A stretch of DNA of 64,000 bases from Ulva prolifera (Eukaryota; Chlorophyta; Ulvophyceae; Ulvales; Ulvaceae). The notes under the pieces were generated by a model. The model was given only the letters and a program-made list of their open reading frames with translations, did not search any database and was not told the DNA's origin. The position numbers were made by a program, and so were the translations under genes. How positions within the stretch are numbered: the stretch's first letter is position 1; each line of letters starts with the position of its first letter. The stretch is from the NCBI GenBank assembly GCA_023078555.1, contig CM041196.1:12170985-12234984 (forward strand), given 5' to 3'. This document shows, in pieces, positions 1,100 to 46,060 of this stretch.

Positions 1100-3868
1100 C
1101 TAGATGGCTGAATCCTCCTTCACGGTGCCTACTCTATAGACTATGAAGGTCGTCGTAGAGAGATGTCTTCTCCATGAGGTTGACCTTGGTCGCATATTTA
1201 ACAGCGGTGACTGCACTTGACAGCTGTGTTTGGTTTCTGTGGCAAGATACAGCTCACACATCCAGGGCGGCACGTAGCGCACACTAAAGTTAGGACAGAC
1301 CTGGAGCTCTGTGATCTTGTCCAGAGCTATACGGATCTTGGGTTGGGTGTGGTTGCGTATACCAGCGCCTAGCTTCTTGTAGTCAAGGAGGACAGCTTCT
1401 TGCTCTGGGATTTCCCGCTTGGCAGCTTCGATGTCTTGGTTCAGTCTAGCTAACTCACTTTCAATGTACGACTTCCCGTACGTTTGCTCACTGTTTGGAC
1501 CAGTTGAGCTGATCTGCATACTGGTACGCACGATATTGAGCATGCCTACGCTATGTGCAGTTCCGGTGTAGTGACGTAGCGGCTGCATTGAGGCACGCTG
1601 CAAATACATGCGGTCTTGCTCACCTAAACCTCGGGTGACTTGAGTGTAGCATCTTTATTTCCCGGCTCCTTGGTGCTCAAAGGCAGTCCGAGTAGATCGT
1701 CCTCAGCCATGCCCATCATTCTCACTACGTTATCGATTGCTACCTCAGTTAAACCCGCATGTACATGTGCGAACGTATGGGTTGCTGCTGCCCAGTCGTT
1801 CTGGTGCAGCTGTGGCTGCTCTGTAGCTGGGTGGGCTAGCTGCTCACAGATCTGGGCTGGGGAGACATATGACTTCTCGGGAAGGGGGTGTGGTGAGCCT
1901 TGCAGTGACGATTCAACTGAGCTCAGCTGTGTATTGGGATGGCGATAAATACAAGGCACTTTGCATGCAGCTGAGATGCGCGCACCTGCATTGCTGGCAG
2001 CCTACTTTGATGCCATGCCGTGTTATTACTGGCCAAGTAACTTCCTTCAAAGTCATTGCTGATATCAATGCCTAGTTTGGTACCTGCACTGTCAGGCTGT
2101 CGTCTCTTGCAGCCCACCTCGACAGGTTCCATTGGCCTCACGTTTGTTGTTGCGGTTGTGAATCCCATGAAACGCACAGTTATTGATATGTCCTTCTCTT
2201 CAACTACTGCTCTTGAGTTGTACAACGCCTGTAGGTTCTCAATACATCATGCAAAATCCTAGTGCTCCATGAGAGCCAGGTACGATGTCAATTGCCATGG
2301 TGATCATGATGACTTGACGACGGTGGCGGATGGATCATACCGTTGACATGTTGCCTGCAACGCCTGGGGGTAACTGTACATTTGTGGCAGATCGCACTGA
2401 CCCGTCTGTAGCTCCTTCTGCATGGTTCCACTTCGGCTTCTCTGGTGTCGGGCCAGTTCGTTTTAAGTCGTGCCTCGGACTTGAAGACTGAGAGGTGATT
2501 TCAAACTTGGGCTAGAAAAGGTTCTTGGGCTCATCAGGCCGCCATGGCGGGCAATGTCCATCGTCGAGTGCCCACTCTAGTCTAGATTTGCTCACCCGGC
2601 CTGGTACTTTGGCCGTCCCTCCACAGACTCTGACATGTATCACGATCGTCCCGATCATGGCGTCTACTAGTATATGAGTCAGCTGTGTAAGATACCCGAT
2701 ACAAGCTCTGTGTTGCGACTGTAAGCACACGTTCATACGAATCACCAGCCGTTTGTCACGTGCACAGCTGAATTCAGCCCGTTAATTCAGGACTCACCAT
2801 CCGGTCAAACTGCATGTGCAGTTCCGTCAAGTCTTTGCCTTGTCCCTTAGCATGAAATGCTGCCTTTGGATCATCCAGCAAAACTTCAGTGAATTTCCGG
2901 ATGCTGACATTGTTATTGCCCATGCGATCGAATACGACCTCCCTGCAAGGAACGGGTCATCGGAGACGTAAACACCTAGCTATAGGCACTTTCACTTTAC
3001 AGCTGTATAGCTACTGAACGACAGACACTGGCGAGGCCGTACTCTTCGAGTTTTGTTTCGCCTGTCTGAAATGTTGTGTAGGGCTTCATCATTGCGGCCC
3101 ACGCGATGGTCAAGTTCAAGATCTTCCGCCCTGCGTCCTCTTCGTCTGTTGCGCCGTCTCCGATTGCCTGCAATTTCCGAATGCACCGTCGGGTGATCAA
3201 TCACACGGGCTGGACTTGCCACTCTGACGCTTCACATGGCAGTGTACTGTTAGCCGCACCTTCGGCGCGAACCCCTTCAGTACTGATATTGGTGTAGTTT
3301 GAAGCCAGCATCCGTCAGGCGTGAGTTTGGGATCAAGCACCTTTTTTACCTTGGGGCACTTTCGATGTGCCTCGGGAAGGGCATTCAACGTTTCCCAAAG
3401 CTTAGCGCACATGTGAATACCACCACGCAGCTTCTCACCCTTGGTATCCACGGTCCTTGCGGTAGTGCCATTGCTGACACATGATCGGCTAACCAGTTCA
3501 TTGACACGGCTGGTAATTGGCGGGCTGGGCATCGCCAGTCTGGATACCGTCCCGATGTTGCCGGGCAGCTCTAGCGCGACTAGATCGGCTCCGTCAGGCA
3601 GATTCAACATGTCACGCAGCAATGTGCACAATGCGTCGTCTGTGTAAATGGCACTAGTCCCGCTCAGAGCTTTCGGACCCGCGGTAGCCACTCGGAATTT
3701 GTGTCGTTTCCATTCTAGTCCATCACTTTCATGGGGTACGTTTCCACCACAGTTGACAAGCAATGTCAACATGAAAGAGCCCTGTTGAGGTTCTTTGGTG
3801 TGACTGATGCTAAAGTCCTGGACATGTGTACGATCACCATCAAAGGATTTCAGAGTTACGGTCACCAT
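1100..3868 (-). CDS. Companion gene of element A (unknown function, multi-exon)
   Basis: Read leftward from an ATG at 3868, this gene is divergent from the element A transposase. Block 1 (3868-3197) is about 220 codons. Block 2 (2943-2798) is bounded by a TTGCAG acceptor and an ATG|GTGAGT donor. Further blocks lie near 2225-1923, 1959-1624 and 1609-1100. The last block has a charged, coiled-coil-like stretch around SYIESELARLNQDIEAAKRE. Block 1 aligns with the first exon of the gene at 26817: an EK(L/M)(R/K) motif, then AH(R/K), then a W and a final VRL are shared in order. Block 2 shares the AF(H/Y) and (R)(M/V)MP-like positions with the same gene. Known CACTA elements carry a second gene for a DNA-binding accessory protein (TnpA in En/Spm). 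That role is an inference here, and I recognise no domain. Exon ends other than those named are not fixed, and intactness is uncertain. Confidence 0.6.
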
Positions 3869-9313: not shown

Positions 9314-12300
9314 ATGTGTTGTATGTCCCCGGGTTTGGATACATGGCTACTTGCATTGAGGATGCGTCCAAATGCCAGGAGCTGGATGAGGATAAGTGTT
9401 GTGTCTTCGCATTTCAGATGAGTTCCATCAAGAAGCCTGTTCTGGAGGGCCATCCCGTCAATAGGGGGGTGGTCTGGTCCAACCAGAGCAGCCCAACCTC
9501 TGTTTTGGAGGATCAACAGCAGTGGTGTCATGTGGCTGCTGCGGCGATTGACCTGAAGCGCCCCAATGATGGGGGAGCTGTGGTCCCACATGATGCTTAC
9601 TTGCTTGAACCTGCATTCCTAGCTCATTTGTCGTTTCACCAGTCGACTTGAGTAGGAAAGCGGATGCAGTCATAGTGAATTTTATGGTGACCTGAATTTG
9701 AAAGTTGACCCCGAGCCAACGGGGAATCGTTATCACGGCTGCAGAATTGGCGAAGTGCATGCAGGCAAACTCTCAGCCAATAATCGTGAGCTCTTAGGCC
9801 AGGCGAAATACCCTGGCGAGCAATTGCATGCTGATTTGGCTGGTCCCATCACTCCAGTTGGGATCGGCGGAGTGAAATATGTTTTGTTTGTGACGTGCGC
9901 CTTCACGCGTTAAAGTTTCATTGTCGGTCTGCGTAAGAAGAGTGAGGCTGCGGCCATGATCTCTTACATCATTGAGCGCGTTTGGGTGAATGCGGTGAAG
10001 TCAGATGAACCGGGTGTGCGCATCCTTCACACCGACAAAGGGGGAGAGTTCATGGTTGAGGCCTTAAAGCTCTACCTCCAGCGTCGTGGCATCACTCACC
10101 GTACCACCCCCACAGCTGATCATCGCTATAAGGGCATGATCGAGCGGTATTACCTTCGAGGCAGTCCAAGCTGTACTGATTGCGAGCGGTCTTCCTCTGT
10201 TCCTGTGGATTGAATGCCTTGCCAGTGTCATCCATGGTCACAATCTCACGCCGTGCTAGGCGCTATACCATGACAAACTGGCAATAATGATGAAGGCCCA
10301 GAAAGCTCAGCGTGATGACAATACAGCTGCGGATGTACAGCAGGCTGAGCGGGCTAATAAGCGCATGAAAAAGGCCGAACGTGATGAGTTGCGGGAGGAG
10401 GAGAAGCGCAAGTGGGAGTTGCTCACTATGACAGAGCTGGACGAGTTTTTGACCAGGTCTTGTGACAGGGATATTATTCCCTACATGGCTTTTTTCAGAG
10501 ACACCTCCGTTGAGGTGTTCCATGATTTGGTGAAGCTGCAGCACCCGTGTTGAAGTGTATGCGTACCCTGAAAATGATAAGGTGCGGAAGTTGTCCGCGC
10601 GGGGTATGGCCGCATACTGGGTTGGTGCTGGGGTGGGGCCCAGCATGCAGCGTGTGTACGCCCAGGATGTTCCTGGGGGTAGGGTTGTGGTGGTGCGGCA
10701 GATCATGTGCTCCACGGATCAGATGATCCGACACGTACGTAACTACGATGCGTCCGCTGTTGTGGACAAGAGAGAACCTGCAGAGTTTGCGAACTCCCTA
10801 CAGGTTGTCTTTGAGGGTGATGACGAGGGTGTTCGCGTGACTGACAGTGATGTCCCCTCGTTCGTCACCGACTCCACACATGATGGGGGAGTGCTGCGAT
10901 GTCTGCGTGAATTTTCGTACGCCCCCCCAGGTCATGGTAGGGTCCCTGTCATGGACATGACGTTCAGACAGGACGCACTGCCCGACGAGGCAGTGTACTC
11001 TCCGCGTTTCGGCGCAAGCGCCTCTGCTGAGGTGCTCCGGCATGACCTTGCGCGGGACACACCAGAGGTGGCCAGGCACACCATGCATCGCGCGCTTGCG
11101 ACTGATCGTGCAGCTGCCCACCCTGACGTTGAAGTGCCTCCTCGGGTCCCAGGCCAAGTGCGCCTATCTGGGGCCCCTCCAGCACGCACTGTTGAGTATG
11201 CGGTGACTCGCAATGCGCAGCTCCATGACCCTGGCGTCGAGGCTGCATTTGTTCTGCCTATGCCTCCGCCGTCATCTGATGATCCAATGGACGAGGATGA
11301 TGATGACGACGGCCCTGGCATCTGCAGTGAGGACGATGCAGATGAGATGGAGGAGTACACCATCAGCGATGATGAACGAGCTGCGGCTCATCAGAATCGC
11401 GAGGCTCAGCGGGTCCGATCAGGGAGTAATTCGGCTGCGGCCTCAGCATCTTGCGCGGGAGCAGTAGCTAAGCCCCTGCGAGGGGCTGAGGGGCTGAGAC
11501 GTTCCTGGGAGGATGAGCCAGATGAACTTGAGATGGAGTCCGGGTCCGAATTAGGGGGAGAGATCCTGGCTGCCCCCACTGCCGCTTTCGGGGTTGATTT
11601 GCCTGATGAGGTAAGAGCCATTCCAGCTGCTGTTCCCCGCGTTAAAATCAATCCGTTTGTACGCAGATGTCTTGTTCCTTTGGCTGTGGATGTAGCTGCT
11701 GTGCATGAGCCCGCGGGCTCTGATCTTGCTAGTAGTGAAACAGTAGTAGCTGACATCAAGTCTCTAGGCTGCAATCAGAACACATCAGCCGCGGCTGACT
11801 ATGGAGTGTCCGGTGCAGGCCTGAAGCATCAGCGTGGGAAGTCTGGTGAGCAGCAGAGTGCTCAGAGTCGTGGGTCGCGCAGAGCAGCTGCCGCCAGGAA
11901 GCAGAAGCCCTCCGACCCTGATCTGCCTTCTATGAACGAAGGACTTGCGGGTCCGGACAGGGATGTTTGGCTGCGTGCCATGCAGGAGGAGGTGGAAGCA
12001 CTGGGCGAGCACGGGACATTTATGTTGTGCTATCTGCCTGCGGGTAAGAAAGCTATCTCGGGCAAGTGGGTGTTCAAGATCAAGCGCGGACCTGCGGGTG
12101 AGATTCAGCGCTGCAAGGCACGTTATGTAGCTCGTGGTTTTTCTCAGGTAGAAGGGATAGATTTCTTTGAGACCTGGTCCCCTTTCGGTAGTTATGCGAC
12201 ACTGAGTGTGCTGCTGTCAATTGCTGCTCAGGAGGATTTGGAGATTAGGCATGTAGATATACAGTGTGCTTTTCTGAACGGTGACTTGGAGGAAGAGGTT

Positions 12301-13468
12301 TTCGTTGAACAGCCCATGTACTTTACAGACGGGACAACACGTGTATGGAATTTGCATAAGACTCTGTATGGCCTGAAGCAAGCCGCTCGCGAGTGGCATA
12401 AAGCTTTAGTAAAGGTCTTGGCTGAACTAGGATTTGTGTGCGCACAAAGTGATCCAAGACTGTATGTCAAAACAACTGGTCGATGTCTCAATTTTTCTGT
12501 GGGTAGATGACTTGATCATTTTCAGTTGCTCTGCGGGGCTGCAAGAAATTGTCAGTGTCATTCTCACAAAATTTGAAGGCAGAGATTTAGGTGACCTGTC
12601 TCGGGCACTTGCCACTGAGATCACGCGTGATCGTAAGGCCAAAACAATCACAATGACACAACGTACCAAAATCAAGAACCTGTTGGACAAGTACAGTATG
12701 TCTGACTGTCGTAAATCTCCCACTCCATTAGTGCAGCGGCAACAGCTAAGGAGTGTGAAAAAGCATCCTGACCGGGAGAAAGCCAGTGCTGCTGAGCATT
12801 CCAGGTTCATGAGTGATGTAGGGAGCATCAATTATATTGTAGGAGTGACACGACCTAACTTGAGCTATGTGGCACATGCCCTGGCCCGGCACATGTCTAG
12901 TAGTCTGAAGGAACATTGGTCTGCCGTGCAACATGTTCTGAGATACCTGCAGTCCACGAAGAATTTAGGAATACAATTTATAGGCTCTGAGGGACATGGG
13001 TGTTTATTAGAGGCTTTTTCAGATGCAGATTTTGCGAATTCTGCAGATCTGAAAAGTGTTTCTGGTATGATTATTCGAGTGTACGGGTACTCTGTTCTCT
13101 GGCGTTCTAAGAAGCAGAGTATAGTGGCTGGGGATACAACAGAGGCTGAGCTCATTGCGATGAGTGCAACAGCCAACGAGTTGATGTGGGTGAAGCAGTT
13201 GCTTCTCGATTTGGAGCTCGTCCCACATAAGCCAACTCTGTGGGGTGACAATAAGAGTGCCAATATCTTGGCAGTGAATGCTGTGTCCACTGACAGATCC
13301 AAGCACATTTGTGTGCGGCACTTGCGAGTGCGGGAATATGTCCAGATGGATGAACTTAAGGTAGCATGGGTTGGCACTGCCGATCAGTTAGCGGATGTGT
13401 TTACTAAGGTGCTGCCCGGACCTGCCTTGCAAGAAGTTCGTAATAAACTCCAGCTAGTGGAGACATAG
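9314..13468 (+). pseudogene. pol: Copia integrase, reverse transcriptase and RNase H
   Basis: Integrase lies at 9700-10210, with HADLAGP (first D), LHTDKGGEF (second D) and GMIER (E) giving the DDE triad. A TAA at 9911 and further frame changes break it. A low-complexity acidic linker follows (10700-11900). RT starts near 11950 with RDVWLRAMQEE and continues through KWVFKIKR, ARGFSQVEGIDF, HVDIQCAFLNGDLEEEVFV and LYGLKQAAREWHK. It then shifts frame near 12480-12510 and continues as FLWVDDLIIF, the YVDD-type catalytic box with W for Y. RNase H at 13000-13400 has DADFANSADLKS, SKKQSIVAGDTTEAELIA, WGDNKSANILA and a KHICVRHLRVRE block, ending ADVFTKVLPGPAL with a stop at 13466. Order PR-IN-RT-RH identifies copia. 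At least five lesions make it non-functional. Confidence 0.9.
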
Positions 13469-30403: not shown

Positions 30404-31153
30404 ATGAGGCCCCCTGCAGTCGGGTTTCCGGGCTGGGGATCTTCCCGTGCGTCTGTTGTCTTGACCCCCTGTCATCGCAACGTGGTTCAGTGGCATGTCC
30501 ACTGCACTGCTTGTGCGGGCAGAGGGCATGGCAGCACAAAAACCATGCATCACCACAATGCTGTTGCAGCCAATGTCTGCAGATTCAGTGGCATATCCTC
30601 TGCAATGTCAGTGGAGGCAGAGAGCACGGAAAGCCCAGAAACAGCAGCATACACAGTTCTGTGCTGTTTCTGTAAAAGGTTGCAGTGCCATGCCATGTGC
30701 ACTGTTCGACATTGTAGGCAAAGGTATTGGCATACTGTGATGAAGATTGTTTCAAAGCTATTTGGAAGCAGCAGGAAATCCATTCGTTGCCGCTCCACAG
30801 ATGCTGGCAAGGCTGGAGATGTCAGTGCTGATGACCTGGACCTTAAACATCGTAGGCAAAGGTATTGGCATGCTGTGATGAAGATTGTTCCAAAGCTATC
30901 TGGAGGCAGCAGGAAATCCATTCGTTGCCGCTCCACAGATGCTGGCAAGGCTGGAGATGTCAGTGCTGAGGATCTGGACCTCAGACATCGTAGGCAAAGG
31001 TATTGGCATGCTGTGATGAAGATTGTTCCAAAGCTATCTGGAAGCAGCAGGAAATCCATTCGTTGCTGCTCCACAGATGCAGGCAAGGCTGGAGATGTCA
31101 GTGCTGAGGATCTGCGCCTCAGACATGTTAGAAACCGTATTGGCATGCTGTAA
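30404..31153 (+). CDS. ORF with 46-residue tandem repeats, unknown function
   Basis: The frame is open to a TAA at 31151-31153. The first in-frame ATG is at 30404, since the frame further upstream begins only with GTG. The C-terminal half consists of three 46-residue repeats plus a short remnant. Each repeat contains RQRYWH, VMKIV(P/S)KL, SRKSIRC, STDAGKAGDVSA and ends DLxLRH or DLDLKH, so it is rich in basic and Ser residues. The minus strand (31191-30550) is also open through the repeats, so the coding strand is not certain. I recognise no family. Some copies differ by only a few bases, so the array is recent. It could be a repeat-protein gene or a minisatellite that happens to be open. Confidence 0.35.
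   Translation: MRPPAVGFPGWGSSRASVVLTPCHRNVVQWHVHCTACAGRGHGSTKTMHHHNAVAANVCRFSGISSAMSVEAESTESPETAAYTVLCCFCKRLQCHAMCTVRHCRQRYWHTVMKIVSKLFGSSRKSIRCRSTDAGKAGDVSADDLDLKHRRQRYWHAVMKIVPKLSGGSRKSIRCRSTDAGKAGDVSAEDLDLRHRRQRYWHAVMKIVPKLSGSSRKSIRCCSTDAGKAGDVSAEDLRLRHVRNRIGML
30710..31123 (+). repeat. Three tandem 138-bp units
   Basis: Units start at 30710, 30848 and 30986, each beginning CAT(T/C)GTAGGCAAAGG. A degenerate fourth copy starts at 31124 and fades out by about 31185. The period of 138 is 46 codons. Confidence 0.92.
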
Positions 31154-39065: not shown

Positions 39066-40620
39066 ATGGCGGAGGCAGCGCAACCTGTGCATGTCCAAAA
39101 GTTGACTTCGTTGGTTCTTGTGATTGACGGTAAGAAGTATGCATTGTCTGTCAGGACGCCATCGGGACAGTCTGTCAGCGACTTTATGCGCGAGACTCGA
39201 GAGGAATTCAAACGCCGCTTTATTGCTGGCACCTCGCGGACTTACAACAGCGTCGAAGGCAGCATGGATCTTGAAGAAGCAACTGTGGACAAGATATTTG
39301 ACACACTATTTCTGATTCCATATGAGAACGAAGAAAACTGGATCATGCCCGTGCACGGATTAGCAGGCGTGATCGTGGTGAAGCCACCTCGAGGTGGTGA
39401 AGACACCCGGCCAACTACGTCGACAAGACAAGCATCAGGCAAACGACAACAGAGAAAGATGGCACAGGTGACGCTCATTGATGTTCAGAGCATCGGGTAG
39501 GATGTAATGTGGTAGCGTTGTTACATTCACACGTTGTAAATATGCGCAACGTTGCAAGTGCTATGCAATCGTCATCACTGCGATCATTGAATTTATGCAG
39601 GAAGAGGAAAAAATGATCGCTGCCGTACATTTGTTCATGCCCCGCATCAGCATAGTGGCGTGGATGTACATACTTCTACACTTGCCAATCGCCCTTATTG
39701 CAAAGACGCCGTCGCTGAGTCTAGGAGCGGTCATGTTGACCCAGATCAGGAAATGGCTCAGAGATCCGTCGATTATGTGTTGGCAGCTGCCAGATGATAT
39801 TGCTGGGACGCTCATGCATGCATGTGTAGACACGACCCGACAGTGTACCAGCTATTGTCCACCTCATTGATCACGGCGTCAACACCACTCATTGTCATTG
39901 CAGGATTTCGAGGGGTTGCTGCAATTGAGGAACGGATTTTCAATCAAGAAGGCGAAAAGCCAGGTTATCCGCTTGGTGTACTCGTACATTAAGAGACGAT
40001 GTCTGCTTGCAGAGCGCCAAGATGTTAAAGATGAGGCGAAGGCTGCTTTGAACAAGATATCCAAAGATTGTGACACAAACAACAGGCGTAAAATCAAGTC
40101 ATCTGCAGACTTATTGTTTCTTTCTTGTGCATACGGGTTGCACATCGAGGGCAAGCTCGCGGCAGCGTTGGCAGATGAGAAATATGATGTCCCAAAGGAC
40201 GTACAGGCAGATGTGCATCGGGAATTGAAGAGTATTTTCACAAAGATCCACGAAACTGAGAAGACAAATCTTGCTAAGACTTTCAGGGAGAACCTACCTA
40301 AGCATATGCTGAACCTGGCCGCCTCCAAACACAATGAATGCGTGTGTCTTACCGCTGTTTGCTATTTCCGGTGGTTCATGTGCCCGTTTAGTCCTTGAAG
40401 CCGCATGATTTCAGGGTGTCCGTGCACTGCTGACGCAGTTTGCTGACATAATGGATGAGGACATCTCCTTGTTCAAGACGAAGGATGTCGCTGAAGCTTA
40501 CAAATCAAAGCTGTTCGAATTCCACCATGAGACGATCTGGAGGCCTGGTTGGGGACCACTCAATGACAACTCACCATCTGCACCACTCTCATTTGCGCTC
40601 GAAGACATTCCAAAATCAAA
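39066..40620 (+). CDS. Unrecognised multi-exon gene downstream of element C transposase, cut by a copia insertion
   Basis: The ATG at 39066 starts a block to 39500 (TSLVLVIDGKKYALSVRT, then a charged helix with REEFKRRF). A Lys/Glu/Ala-rich helical block at 39900-40370 follows (for example KDEAKAALNKISKD and KSADLLFLSCAYGLHIEGK). A block at 40430-40620 contains FADIMDEDISLFKTKD and ETIWRPGWGPLND. These read like one soluble, helical protein with two or more introns. The gene is on the same strand as the element C transposase, so it could be the accessory gene of that element, but it shows no clear similarity to the companion genes of A and B. Coding similarity ends where the minus-strand copia sequence begins near 40616-40640. 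No function is proposed. Confidence 0.4.
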
Positions 40621-41417
40621 GGGGAGCAACAAACACTGGCCGATTCTGGTGGTCATGCGATTGAGTAATCCGACCCTCCGTGTGGCCCATGGCCTGGTCA
40701 GAACACCCAGGTACAAAAACAAGATCACCTCCTTCTGTCGCCACATGCGTTTGCAAGGTAAAGCCGACATTCTTCAACAAATGTGTAGACAAAATGTTGG
40801 AAGGACAGTGCGGCACATACAAGCAATTCGGGATCTCAATGGTCAGATCCTTGATCTCCCCATCCATCGTGACATAGGACCCCAGCCGGAAACATATAGT
40901 TCCCTCCCCCAGAACTGGAATATCCTCATCCCCTATTGGGTGAATGCACTCTACAGATGCAGCATGCATTGACAAGAACAGCTCGGGGTTCCTAATGACA
41001 TGGACATCAGATCCGTTGTCCACCAGGAAGTTCAGGCTTTCGCCCAGGTGCGCAACATCCGTCAAGGAGAAGTCGTCGCTAGGAAATCGCACGACAGCAA
41101 CAGAGTTGCCATTGCCTCGTCCTCGTCCGCGTCCTCTGCCGGCGCCTCGTCCCTGGCGGCTGGCGTTGTTGGCAACCTGGTTCTGAAGATACTTCCTGAC
41201 TTCCGGATGCAAATCCAGGCAGTCCTTCTGGAGGTGTCCAGTCTTCTTGCATACGTGGCAGGTGCGCATCTCGCCATTGGCGATCGCGGCGACAGCTGCC
41301 GGTTGTCCTCGGTTCCCATTGCCCCCTCTGTAACCATGGCCTTGGCCGTGGCCTCGGCCTGCTATGCCACCACCACGTGCGGGCCCATCGGCATCTAAAG
41401 CCTGGGCATGGTTGGTA

Positions 41418-41425
41418 ATGGCAGC
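41418..41425. repeat. 8-bp target-site duplication ATGGCAGC, left copy
   Basis: ATGGCAGC here is repeated at 42283-42290, directly outside the inverted ends of the hAT element. Confidence 0.92.
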
Positions 41426-42282
41426 CAGTGTTGGCAAAATACGCGTATTCTCGAAAAAAACGTATGAAATACGCGTATTATGGCCACAACGTATGGAATA
41501 CGGCATACGTTGGACTTGGCCAGCGTGTGGGCACCTAAGTGCTAGCGCTGTACACAGACTGCGCTTGTAGACGCTTGTCGACAAGCGCGTAGGCTCAATA
41601 GTCACCTGCCGCGGCCGCTGCGCTGCGCATGCCGCCACACAGAGCCTCGTGTAACGTTTAGTCGTGTCTGTAGTATTGTCAGAGGTCATGAGACATTGCG
41701 GCTTACGTGCAGCGTGCTATTCACTGTGGCACGATGCAGCGGTTCTTGGGGAACGGGCCCTGCAGCGCAAAAGCGAGGGCGTGATGATGACTGGAAATCT
41801 CACGTAGATATTAAGGCATTGCAGAAATTGCAAAGCGCATCACTGCGCTGGGGCCAACGGCGTCGCCTTGTGAGCGCAACTGGTCTGCGTATGAGCATGT
41901 TGTGAGCAAGAAGCGCAACCGCCTGAGCGTAGACAAGGCTGAGAAGCTTGTTTATGTGTTTCAGAACCTGCGTACGCTGTATGCGACAGAGCACGCCAAC
42001 CGTAGTGAGCTCTATGAGCAGATGTACTTCGATGCATTTGCTTCGGAGGACGAGGGTGGAAGCAGTGATGCCAGCGACGAGGATGTTGCAACAGAATGAG
42101 CTGCTGTTGTCTTGGTGCATGCACAGATGCTCTGGTCGGCGGGGGCTGCGCCCCCGCACCCCCGTTGCTATGTTCCTGCCTCAAGTGCACTTTGACACAC
42201 GTATTCCCCCACCGCAAACGTATTTGCATACCGTATTCGCTGCCCAGCGTATGCCATACGAAATACAAAAGTGCCAACACTG
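41426..42282 (+). mobile_element. hAT deletion derivative nested in copia gag
   Basis: The ends are CAGTGTTGGCA and its inverse TGCCAACACTG, the CA(A/G)TG-type terminus of hAT elements. They are flanked by a perfect 8-bp duplication, also a hAT trait. It is 857 bp. Subterminal copies of ATACGCGTATT and CGTAT-rich words lie at the left end, with related CGTATG words at the right. The interior keeps only the last part of a transposase, so it moves only with help from a full copy. Confidence 0.93.
41815..42099 (+). pseudogene. C-terminal remnant of hAT transposase (hATC dimerisation region)
   Basis: The frame after a TAA at 41812 reads GIAEIAKRITALGPTASPCE and continues with RNWSAYEHVVSKKRNRLS and EKLVYVFQNLR, ending in an acidic tail with a stop at 42097-42099. 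The pattern S-P-CERNWS followed by KKRNRL and a Y-x-x-x-NLR motif is characteristic of the hAT C-terminal dimerisation domain. Everything upstream, including the catalytic DDE residues, is missing or out of frame. Confidence 0.88.
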
Positions 42283-42811: not shown

Positions 42812-42816
42812 CAGCT
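42812..42816. repeat. 5-bp target-site duplication CAGCT, left copy of the TRIM
   Basis: CAGCT precedes LTR1 of the TRIM and recurs at 43668-43672 after LTR2. The copia gag reading frame is continuous when the TRIM and one CAGCT are removed. Confidence 0.92.
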
Positions 42817-43105
42817 TGTTGTGGGATATCCATATCTGGGGATCCAAGAATATAGATGACATAATCAAGGGAGGAGTCATCTAACAAAGGACTCGTTGCT
42901 TCAGGTGAGCCCCAGTGGTTAGAGCATGTCGTGTGTACTCTAGAGGTCACCGGTTCAATTCTTACTTCCATTTCTGCCGCGCGACTTTACGCGTTGGCAA
43001 GGTACGCTCCCCTCCACATCGTCATGCACAGTCAGCATGCTTACCAGCTCAGGCACGCGCATTAACCCCTGTGCACACTCGATGAGACTAACACGCGTCT
43101 TGACA
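42817..43105 (+). repeat. TRIM LTR1
   Basis: This 289-bp 5' LTR is followed by GGTATCGATGAGCAG, the primer site. It contains the tRNA-like part at 42903-42966. Confidence 0.92.
42903..42966 (+). promoter_or_regulatory. tRNA-like region with A-box and B-box in TRIM LTR1
   Basis: CAGTGGTTAGAGC at 42913-42925 is identical to the D-arm part of many tRNA genes, which overlaps the A box. GGTTCAATTCT at 42952-42962 is close to the B-box consensus GGTTCGANNCC and to the T loop of the tRNA-Pro gene in this window. The spacing of about 40 bp is normal for a type 2 Pol III promoter. Stem pairing is poor, so it is tRNA-derived or tRNA-like and not a working tRNA. The same region is at 43465-43528 in LTR2. 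Confidence 0.6.
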
Positions 43106-43120
43106 GGTATCGATGAGCAG
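43106..43120 (+). promoter_or_regulatory. TRIM primer-binding site
   Basis: GGTATCGATGAGCAG directly follows LTR1. It matches 11 bases of the sites of the two copia elements but lacks the first T of TGGTATC, unless the LTR end is read one base differently. Confidence 0.65.
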
Positions 43121-43378
43121 ACTTCGTAATCTGCCTTACAGCTTCCATCTTCCTTACACCTTCCGCTGTGTGAGCTCCTCCCGAGCGATCGCATCCCAGT
43201 CAGCATAGCTCTCGAGCTTAAGGGAGTCCCAGTTATATGAGTTCGGTTACAGCGGGTTGGGCCCCCGTGGACTCGGGACGCGAAGAGAAGGTTCCAACAT
43301 TCCATCAGGAGTATCGAAGATATCCCACAGTTATCAGATCTGGATCTCCCTACGCTCGATCCTCGTTAAGGGGGGAAG

Positions 43379-43667
43379 TGTTGTGGGATATCCATATCTG
43401 GGGATCCAAGAATATAGATGACATAATCAAGGGAGGAGTCATCTAACAAAGGACTCGTTGCTTCAGGTGAGCCCCAGTGGTTAGAGCATGTCGTGTGTAC
43501 TCTAGAGGTCACCGGTTCAATTCTTACTTTCATTTCTGCCGCGCGACTTTACGCGTTGGCAAGGTACGCTCCCCTCCACATCGTCATGCACAGTCAGCAT
43601 GCTTACCAGCTCAGGCACGCGCATTAACCCCTGTGCACACTCGATGAGACTAACACGCGTCTTGACA
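43379..43667 (+). repeat. TRIM LTR2
   Basis: This 289-bp 3' LTR is preceded by the purine tract ending GGGGGGAAG. It is followed by the CAGCT duplication at 43668-43672. The tRNA-like region is at 43465-43528. Confidence 0.92.
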
Positions 43668-43853
43668 CAGCTCTCATTGCATCTACAATAGCATCGTCGT
43701 CATTCAGTTCACAATCAAACATGTGACAACCTGTGACATAATGACGGTTGATCTGGTCATTGATTGCACACTGATGACAGTGCGGTTGCCCGTAGCCGCG
43801 CGCATTCAAATGACAACCACCTCATCGCGCAACTAATGCAGCGACACAACACA

Positions 43854-45974: not shown

Positions 45975-46060
45975 GGGGCAAGCCGAGAATTGAACTCGGG
46001 ACCTCTCGCAGGCTAGATATGCTTCCCTAAGCGAGAATCATACCACTAGACCACATGCCC
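45975..46060 (-). tRNA. trnP: tRNA-Pro(AGG) with 14-nt intron
   Basis: The minus strand begins GGGCATGTGGTCTAGTGGTA and ends with T arm CCGAGTTCAATTCTCGG and acceptor CTTGCCC plus discriminator C. The anticodon stem is CTCGC/GCGAG and the anticodon is AGG (TTAGGG loop), which fits eukaryotic tRNA-Pro. A 14-nt intron occupies plus-strand 46011-46024, at the canonical place one base 3' of the anticodon. The mature length is 72 nt. One T-T mismatch is visible in the acceptor stem. Four T follow on the minus strand, a Pol III terminator. The A and B boxes are internal. Confidence 0.93.

Follow-up and report, generated by a model that had tools for sequence, protein, structure and literature searches.

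The window analysed here, a stretch of 64,000 nucleotides from the green alga Ulva prolifera, contains at positions 42817-43667 an 851-bp TRIM which is composed of two LTRs, a 273-bp internal region, a primer-binding site (PBS) and a polypurine tract (PPT) (Table 1). The LTRs are 289-bp direct repeats (42817-43105 and 43379-43667) with the termini TGTTGT...TTGACA, and a single mismatch distinguishes them at LTR position 152, where the 5′ LTR carries a C (42968) and the 3′ LTR a T (43530). Two LTRs, a PBS, a PPT, a length below 1000 bp, the absence of gag and pol and the short target-site duplication CAGCT are the features by which TRIMs are recognised, and all of them are present. An earlier sequence-only reading of this DNA had described the same anatomy, including the single LTR difference and the 5-bp duplication, and is borne out by the sequence in these points. 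Its statement that the element has no coding capacity also holds. No gene was recognised, the longest open reading frame (ORF) lying fully within the 851 bp encodes 116 aa on the minus strand, and a Pfam scan of this ORF and of one of 69 aa (ORFs of 54-56 aa being left out) gave no match above the cut-off; a single match among the scanned TRIM ORFs stood below it (E = 0.014). Elsewhere the window harbours remnants of copia-type pol genes (Pol_BBD at 40616-41689 on the minus strand, RVT_2 at 10555-12510) and, at 30708-31131, a 148-nt repeat in three overlapping copies with a spacing of 138 bases.

Table 1. Features of the TRIM and its target site, in window positions.
Feature	Position	Strand	Basis or remark
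Target-site duplication CAGCT, left copy	42812..42816		exact 5-bp duplication
5′ LTR, 289 bp, TGTTGT...TTGACA	42817..43105	+	repeat comparison
tRNA-Thr(UGU)-derived module, 5′ LTR	42902..42959	+	tRNA nucleotides 2-58; 3′ acceptor strand missing
A box GAGCCCCAGTGG, 5′ LTR	42907..42918	+	tRNA alignment
B box GGTTCAATTCT, 5′ LTR	42952..42962	+	starts at LTR 136
Primer-binding site GGTATCGATGAG	43106..43117	+	complement of iMet tRNA 3′ end, all but last A
Internal region, 273 bp, no recognisable gene	43106..43378	+	1 of 29 full-length genome copies
Polypurine tract AAGGGGGGAAG	43368..43378	+	expected position before 3′ LTR
3′ LTR, one base unlike 5′ LTR	43379..43667	+	repeat comparison
tRNA-Thr-derived module, 3′ LTR	43464..43521	+	A box 43469-43480, B box 43514-43524
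Target-site duplication CAGCT, right copy	43668..43672		exact 5-bp duplication

The internal region has 33 matches in the genome (88.9 Mb searched in 44 contigs), of which 29 cover its full length, and a 30-mer close to the end of the LTR has 156 with up to three mismatches, for which the reversed control gave none. Forty genome stretches picked from the match lists were classified together with the window, and these 41 loci comprise 23 complete elements with whole LTRs, nine solo LTRs and nine copies that are truncated or otherwise odd. Exact 5-bp duplications flank 19 of the 23 complete elements and all nine solo LTRs. The LTR pairs are identical in 13 of the 22 elements having exactly two whole LTRs, which establishes that the family moved recently. 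Non-identical pairs differ at 1 to 10 sites, except for the pair at L012, where an insertion accounts for 32 differences. One further locus (L018; C7:4649900-4652200) is a tandem TRIM with three LTRs and two internal regions, whose PBS variants are GGTATCGG and GGTATCGA.

Within the LTR, positions 86-143 (58 nt) are collinear with nucleotides 2-58 of tRNA-Thr(UGU), beginning in the 5′ acceptor strand and reaching as far as the T loop (nucleotides 3-59 in a listing which carries one extra leading base). Here CAGTGGTTAGAGC begins at LTR position 97 and GGTTCAATTCT at 136, and the A box has one additional base relative to tRNA-Thr. The comparison set was a sample of 30 tRNA genes, drawn from the 60 matches listed of 1780 first-look candidates and yielding 23 distinct strings, some of which differ just at their ends; among these 23, tRNA-Thr(TGT) matched the LTR best. 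The LTR of the window reached a score of 24, compared to 12.7 on average for its shuffles (sd 1.7, maximum 22), and the LTR of a second subfamily (L013) a score of 30, compared to a mean of 12.6; in both cases none of 300 shuffles came as high. Scores remained at shuffle level for the internal region, for the reverse strand and for the LTRs of a sibling TRIM and of a gypsy element (both described below). In addition, a genome-wide count of the pattern AGTGGTTAGAGC-N12..40-GGTTCAA gave 53 occurrences, compared to none for its reversed form, and the 53 sequences look like one family. The homology identifies LTR 86-143, on the alignment evidence, as a descendant of a tRNA-Thr-like gene, and the A and B boxes that had been claimed at tRNA-like spacing are thereby confirmed. 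A check of the LTR for a tRNA, as suggested by the sequence-only reading, had a divided outcome: the alignment to the tRNAs of the genome exceeded all shuffles, but ARAGORN called no tRNA at the module and Rfam returned nothing between 42700 and 43800, even at E values up to 10. This silence marks the module as a relic and not a tRNA gene, and together with the missing 3′ acceptor strand it fits a sequence that was kept as a promoter and not as a tRNA. It is also what could be brought forward for a chance resemblance of the boxes in an ordinary TRIM; against the shuffle scores of both LTRs and the collinearity of the alignment, however, such a coincidence is extremely improbable. Outside the element, ARAGORN reported on the minus strand at 45975-46060 of the window a tRNA of undefined type with a two-base anticodon, which is probably spurious.

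The PBS leads to the initiator tRNA-Met (iMet), for which three genes were found in the genome. The two genes that were read have CATCGAT and CACCGAT, respectively, ahead of the discriminator A, and their 3′ ends with CCA added predict the PBSs TGGTATCGATGAGAGG and TGGTATCGGTGAGAGG. The 29 exact PBSs of the family are GGTATCGATGAG in nine cases and GGTATCGGTGAG in 20, two versions which correspond to the two iMet genes. If the PBS were copied from either isodecoder in each round, as one would infer from the known replication of LTR elements, the existence of two variants would be explained. The match to the iMet 3′ end extends over 12 nt and lacks the last A of the tRNA. In both sets of TRIMs and in the gypsy elements L101-L103 the base ahead of the GG of the PBS is an A (window 43103-43108), so that the last A of the primer tRNA would not pair, while L096-L098 have a T at this place. 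A primer without its last base is the sole account that we can offer for this A. An origin of the PBS from the end of another tRNA was discarded, as a search with GTTCRANNCTGCTCAYCGAT yielded a single match that did not convince and the iMet genes explain the PBS.

A search for the PBS pattern with two mismatches allowed gave 90 places in the genome compared to four for the reversed control. Forty-one of the 90 end in GAGTAA; 18 of these, distributed over 12 loci, were read and represent a second TRIM with a 278-bp LTR and a 470-bp unit (L080-L091, e.g., C2:3952000-3955500). Four of the loci hold this second TRIM in tandem arrays. It shares the start of the PBS and the first LTR bases with the TRIM of the window, the PPTs are similar, and the 18 PBSs are the same two variants (12 and 6). 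A tRNA module was not recovered in the one LTR of this sibling that was tested, as its score of 14 was reached by 62 of 300 shuffles (mean 12.4); the LTR does carry the B-box-like GGTTCAAG.

Five longer loci were also read. The pattern of PPT and LTR tip has 89 matches in the genome compared to none in reversed controls, and L103 is among them, its junction (TTAAGGGGGGAGG-TGTTGTGAGATATC) differing from that of the TRIM at two of 27 positions. L101, L102 and L103 each encode RVT_1 and RNase H and have the PBS region in common with the TRIM; in L102 the integrase follows behind the reverse transcriptase, which is the gypsy order. L103, the PBS of which begins GGTATCGGTGA, shows RVT_1, RNase H, a Tf2-1-like SH3 and a chromodomain above the cut-off and a protease match below it. 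As an alignment of the TRIM and gypsy LTRs revealed no similarity beyond the tip, the case for a partner rests on PBS, PPT and LTR tip, which point to the chromodomain Ty3/gypsy element. Dissimilarity of the remaining LTR is likewise reported for the one Helenus/Copia pair in the account of Kojima (2024; PMC10886601).

At L104:3145-4659 (plus strand), CA-TGGTATCGATGA, a full iMet-type PBS with the T, lies about 160 nt ahead of an ORF whose match to a copia-type gag falls just short of the cut-off. This might possibly be a copia element primed by the same iMet tRNA, and with such a site near a weak copia-type gag the PBS by itself is not specific to gypsy, which weakens a gypsy-only partnership. 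A site at 3145 (+) was rejected as PBS of that locus, since it is a chance site and the real PBS lies on the minus strand; no pol domain is therefore assigned to the L104 element. At two other loci (L049:4019-4291 on the minus strand, and L035) the internal region of the TRIM stands with PBS and PPT within non-TRIM sequence, which ends in CA and resumes with TG, and the left flank at L049 resembles the LTR of the gypsy element L103 over 60 nt (77%). This copy may be a recombinant of TRIM and gypsy; a clean LTR-swapped element was dismissed, as no repeat beyond 12-13 nt exists between the two flanks.

TRIMs with tRNA-derived sequence in their LTRs have been named Helenus and united with Cassandra and Ajax as TRIMp3 (Kojima, 2024; PMC10886601). 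The expectation that a tRNA-like module in a TRIM LTR was undescribed is consequently not borne out, and of the overall reading the TRIM with a tRNA-derived A/B-box module stands while its novelty does not. The present element resembles Helenus, as characterised there, in being a short TRIM in which each LTR has tRNA-derived A and B boxes, with a PBS and a PPT and no coding capacity; the 5-bp duplications agree with those of fungal and plant Helenus families, and the PBS is complementary to a host tRNA, at the iMet 3′ end. Hosts of Helenus in Table 1 of that paper are fungi, animals and the lycophyte (spikemoss) Selaginella, with green algae absent from the table, so that U. prolifera lies outside the groups given. 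The genome itself shows 38 exon-level matches to light-harvesting (LHC) proteins, and the one that was read, a green-type Lhcb, matches chlorophyll a/b-binding proteins in the PDB, the top entry being 9vfj, which may come from a secondary green alga; these matches speak for a green antenna and against a fungal host. A search for hydrophobins gave no match, as did its controls, and twenty ORFs near the sampled tRNA genes carried no signal of lineage. Fungal Helenus is tied to Copia, mostly by PBSs directed to the tRNA anticodon loop, and animal Helenus to Gypsy; here, by contrast, the PBS fits a tRNA 3′ end, a type which is given for some fungal families too, and PPT and LTR tip are common with a Ty3/gypsy element. 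According to the legend of Figure 2 in the same paper, fungal Helenus families were aligned to yeast tRNA-Thr. Cassandra, there called the only validated TRIMp3 lineage, is similar in having a Pol III-type internal promoter sequence in its LTR (predicted in the present case), but this derives from 5S rRNA and not from a tRNA; for the present LTR a 5S-derived promoter is not indicated, as Rfam gave no match. Ajax likewise combines a small-RNA promoter in a TRIM LTR with 5-bp duplications, but its promoter is 5S-derived and its hosts are two nemerteans. tRNA-derived SINEs share an A/B-box stretch of tRNA origin without a functional tRNA (PMC10886601), but the present element has LTRs, a PBS, a PPT and integrase-type duplications. 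No algal TRIM with a tRNA promoter appeared among the literature matches listed, which is weak evidence of absence as most subscription journals lay outside the search. Judged by its sequence, the element is a real, recently active Helenus-type TRIM and in other respects typical of a class already described.

To gauge the conservation of the boxes, 80 LTRs were aligned, one per locus except for L018, of which three were dropped for less than 90% coverage. The remaining 77 represent a young family in which very old copies are under-sampled, because 40 of the 80 LTRs were chosen among copies with an intact 30-mer. The core of the A box is kept in 67 of the 77 copies, the B box in 68 and both in 59. 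Rare variants, defined as present in at most three rows and counted per site and row, occur at rates of 0.0148 upstream of the module, 0.0123 within it and 0.0103 downstream, with 0.0167 for the A box and 0.0142 for the B box. As these box rates resemble those elsewhere in the LTR, insertion is not followed by any special protection of the boxes, and selection on them was not seen among the 77 copies. No second Helenus family was encountered with which the boxes could be compared. The sequence-only reading had proposed that the module should be more conserved than the remaining LTR, which is not the case here, and that boxes which are absent from other copies or drift like neutral sequence would reduce the match to chance. 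The boxes are present in most copies; that they drift like their surroundings counts against the reading. We read this drift as that of dead copies, since the tRNA-Thr homology is independent of box conservation.

Common variants are found at nine LTR sites, five of them inside the module (97, 103, 114, 125 and 126), and these five spare the whole B box as well as the A-box GG. The state without T at 103 and the AT at 125-126 are nearer to tRNA-Thr, for which reason the subfamily of the window appears derived. The T at 103 is a change in D-loop length, of a kind that tRNAs tolerate. TTTT is missing from the unique 562 bp of the element, but it is also missing in 28% of shuffles, and its depletion is not significant as a Pol III signature.

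From the boxes themselves we infer that Pol III would transcribe the element from the LTR. The competing view takes the module as a real tRNA fossil which is no longer a promoter, with Pol II transcribing from an ordinary LTR promoter, as presumably in the sibling TRIM and the gypsy element. It draws on the missing preferential conservation of the boxes in the 77 copies, on the lower tRNA likeness of the window LTR compared to that of subfamily 2, on a TATA string at LTR position 35, and on the sibling, which multiplied too, yet without a module. Still, the B box and the A-box GG are free of the common variants of the module, and what was retained of the tRNA is its 5′ portion, in which the two boxes have kept their tRNA spacing, as a promoter would require; we regard the Pol II view as rather unlikely. 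How the module arrived in the LTR is a separate matter, compatible with either a tRNA-Thr-headed SINE which landed there or the direct capture of a tRNA gene under the preferred Pol III reading. The SINE route, to which we give slightly less than an even chance, is the one proposed for Helenus and Ajax (Kojima, 2024; PMC10886601), and the start of the module near the tRNA 5′ end is compatible with it; on the other side, no SINE with this module came up among the 53 pattern matches, a search which would miss diverged SINEs.

Taken as a whole, the element is probably a non-coding TRIM of the Helenus type that carries most of a tRNA-Thr gene in its LTR, provides its RNA by Pol III, uses the proteins of a gypsy element and is primed by iMet tRNA. 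TFIIIC and Pol III would use the A and B boxes of the 5′ LTR and start the RNA just upstream of the tRNA-like stretch, at about LTR position 80, and transcription would continue across the element to a point within or beyond the 3′ LTR. The RNA would be packaged by gypsy proteins, iMet tRNA would prime it at the PBS, the repeated LTR would serve strand transfer and the PPT would prime the second strand, before the gypsy integrase would insert the product with a 5-bp duplication. It is possible, albeit doubtful, that Helenus arose in the algal lineage independently of its fungal and animal counterparts, when a gypsy-dependent TRIM took up in its LTR a tRNA-Thr gene of the alga itself, with the sister TRIM keeping its presumed Pol II LTR.

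The element extends tRNA-promoter TRIMs to a lineage outside the published table, and points to a Ty3/gypsy chromodomain partner with an iMet 3′-end primer. As it is paired with a sibling that lacks the module, the question of whether Pol III drives Helenus becomes testable inside one small genome. If Helenus did arise independently in the alga in the way considered above, it and its sibling would compete in one cell for one gypsy machinery, which would constitute a natural comparison of RNA supply by Pol III and by Pol II.
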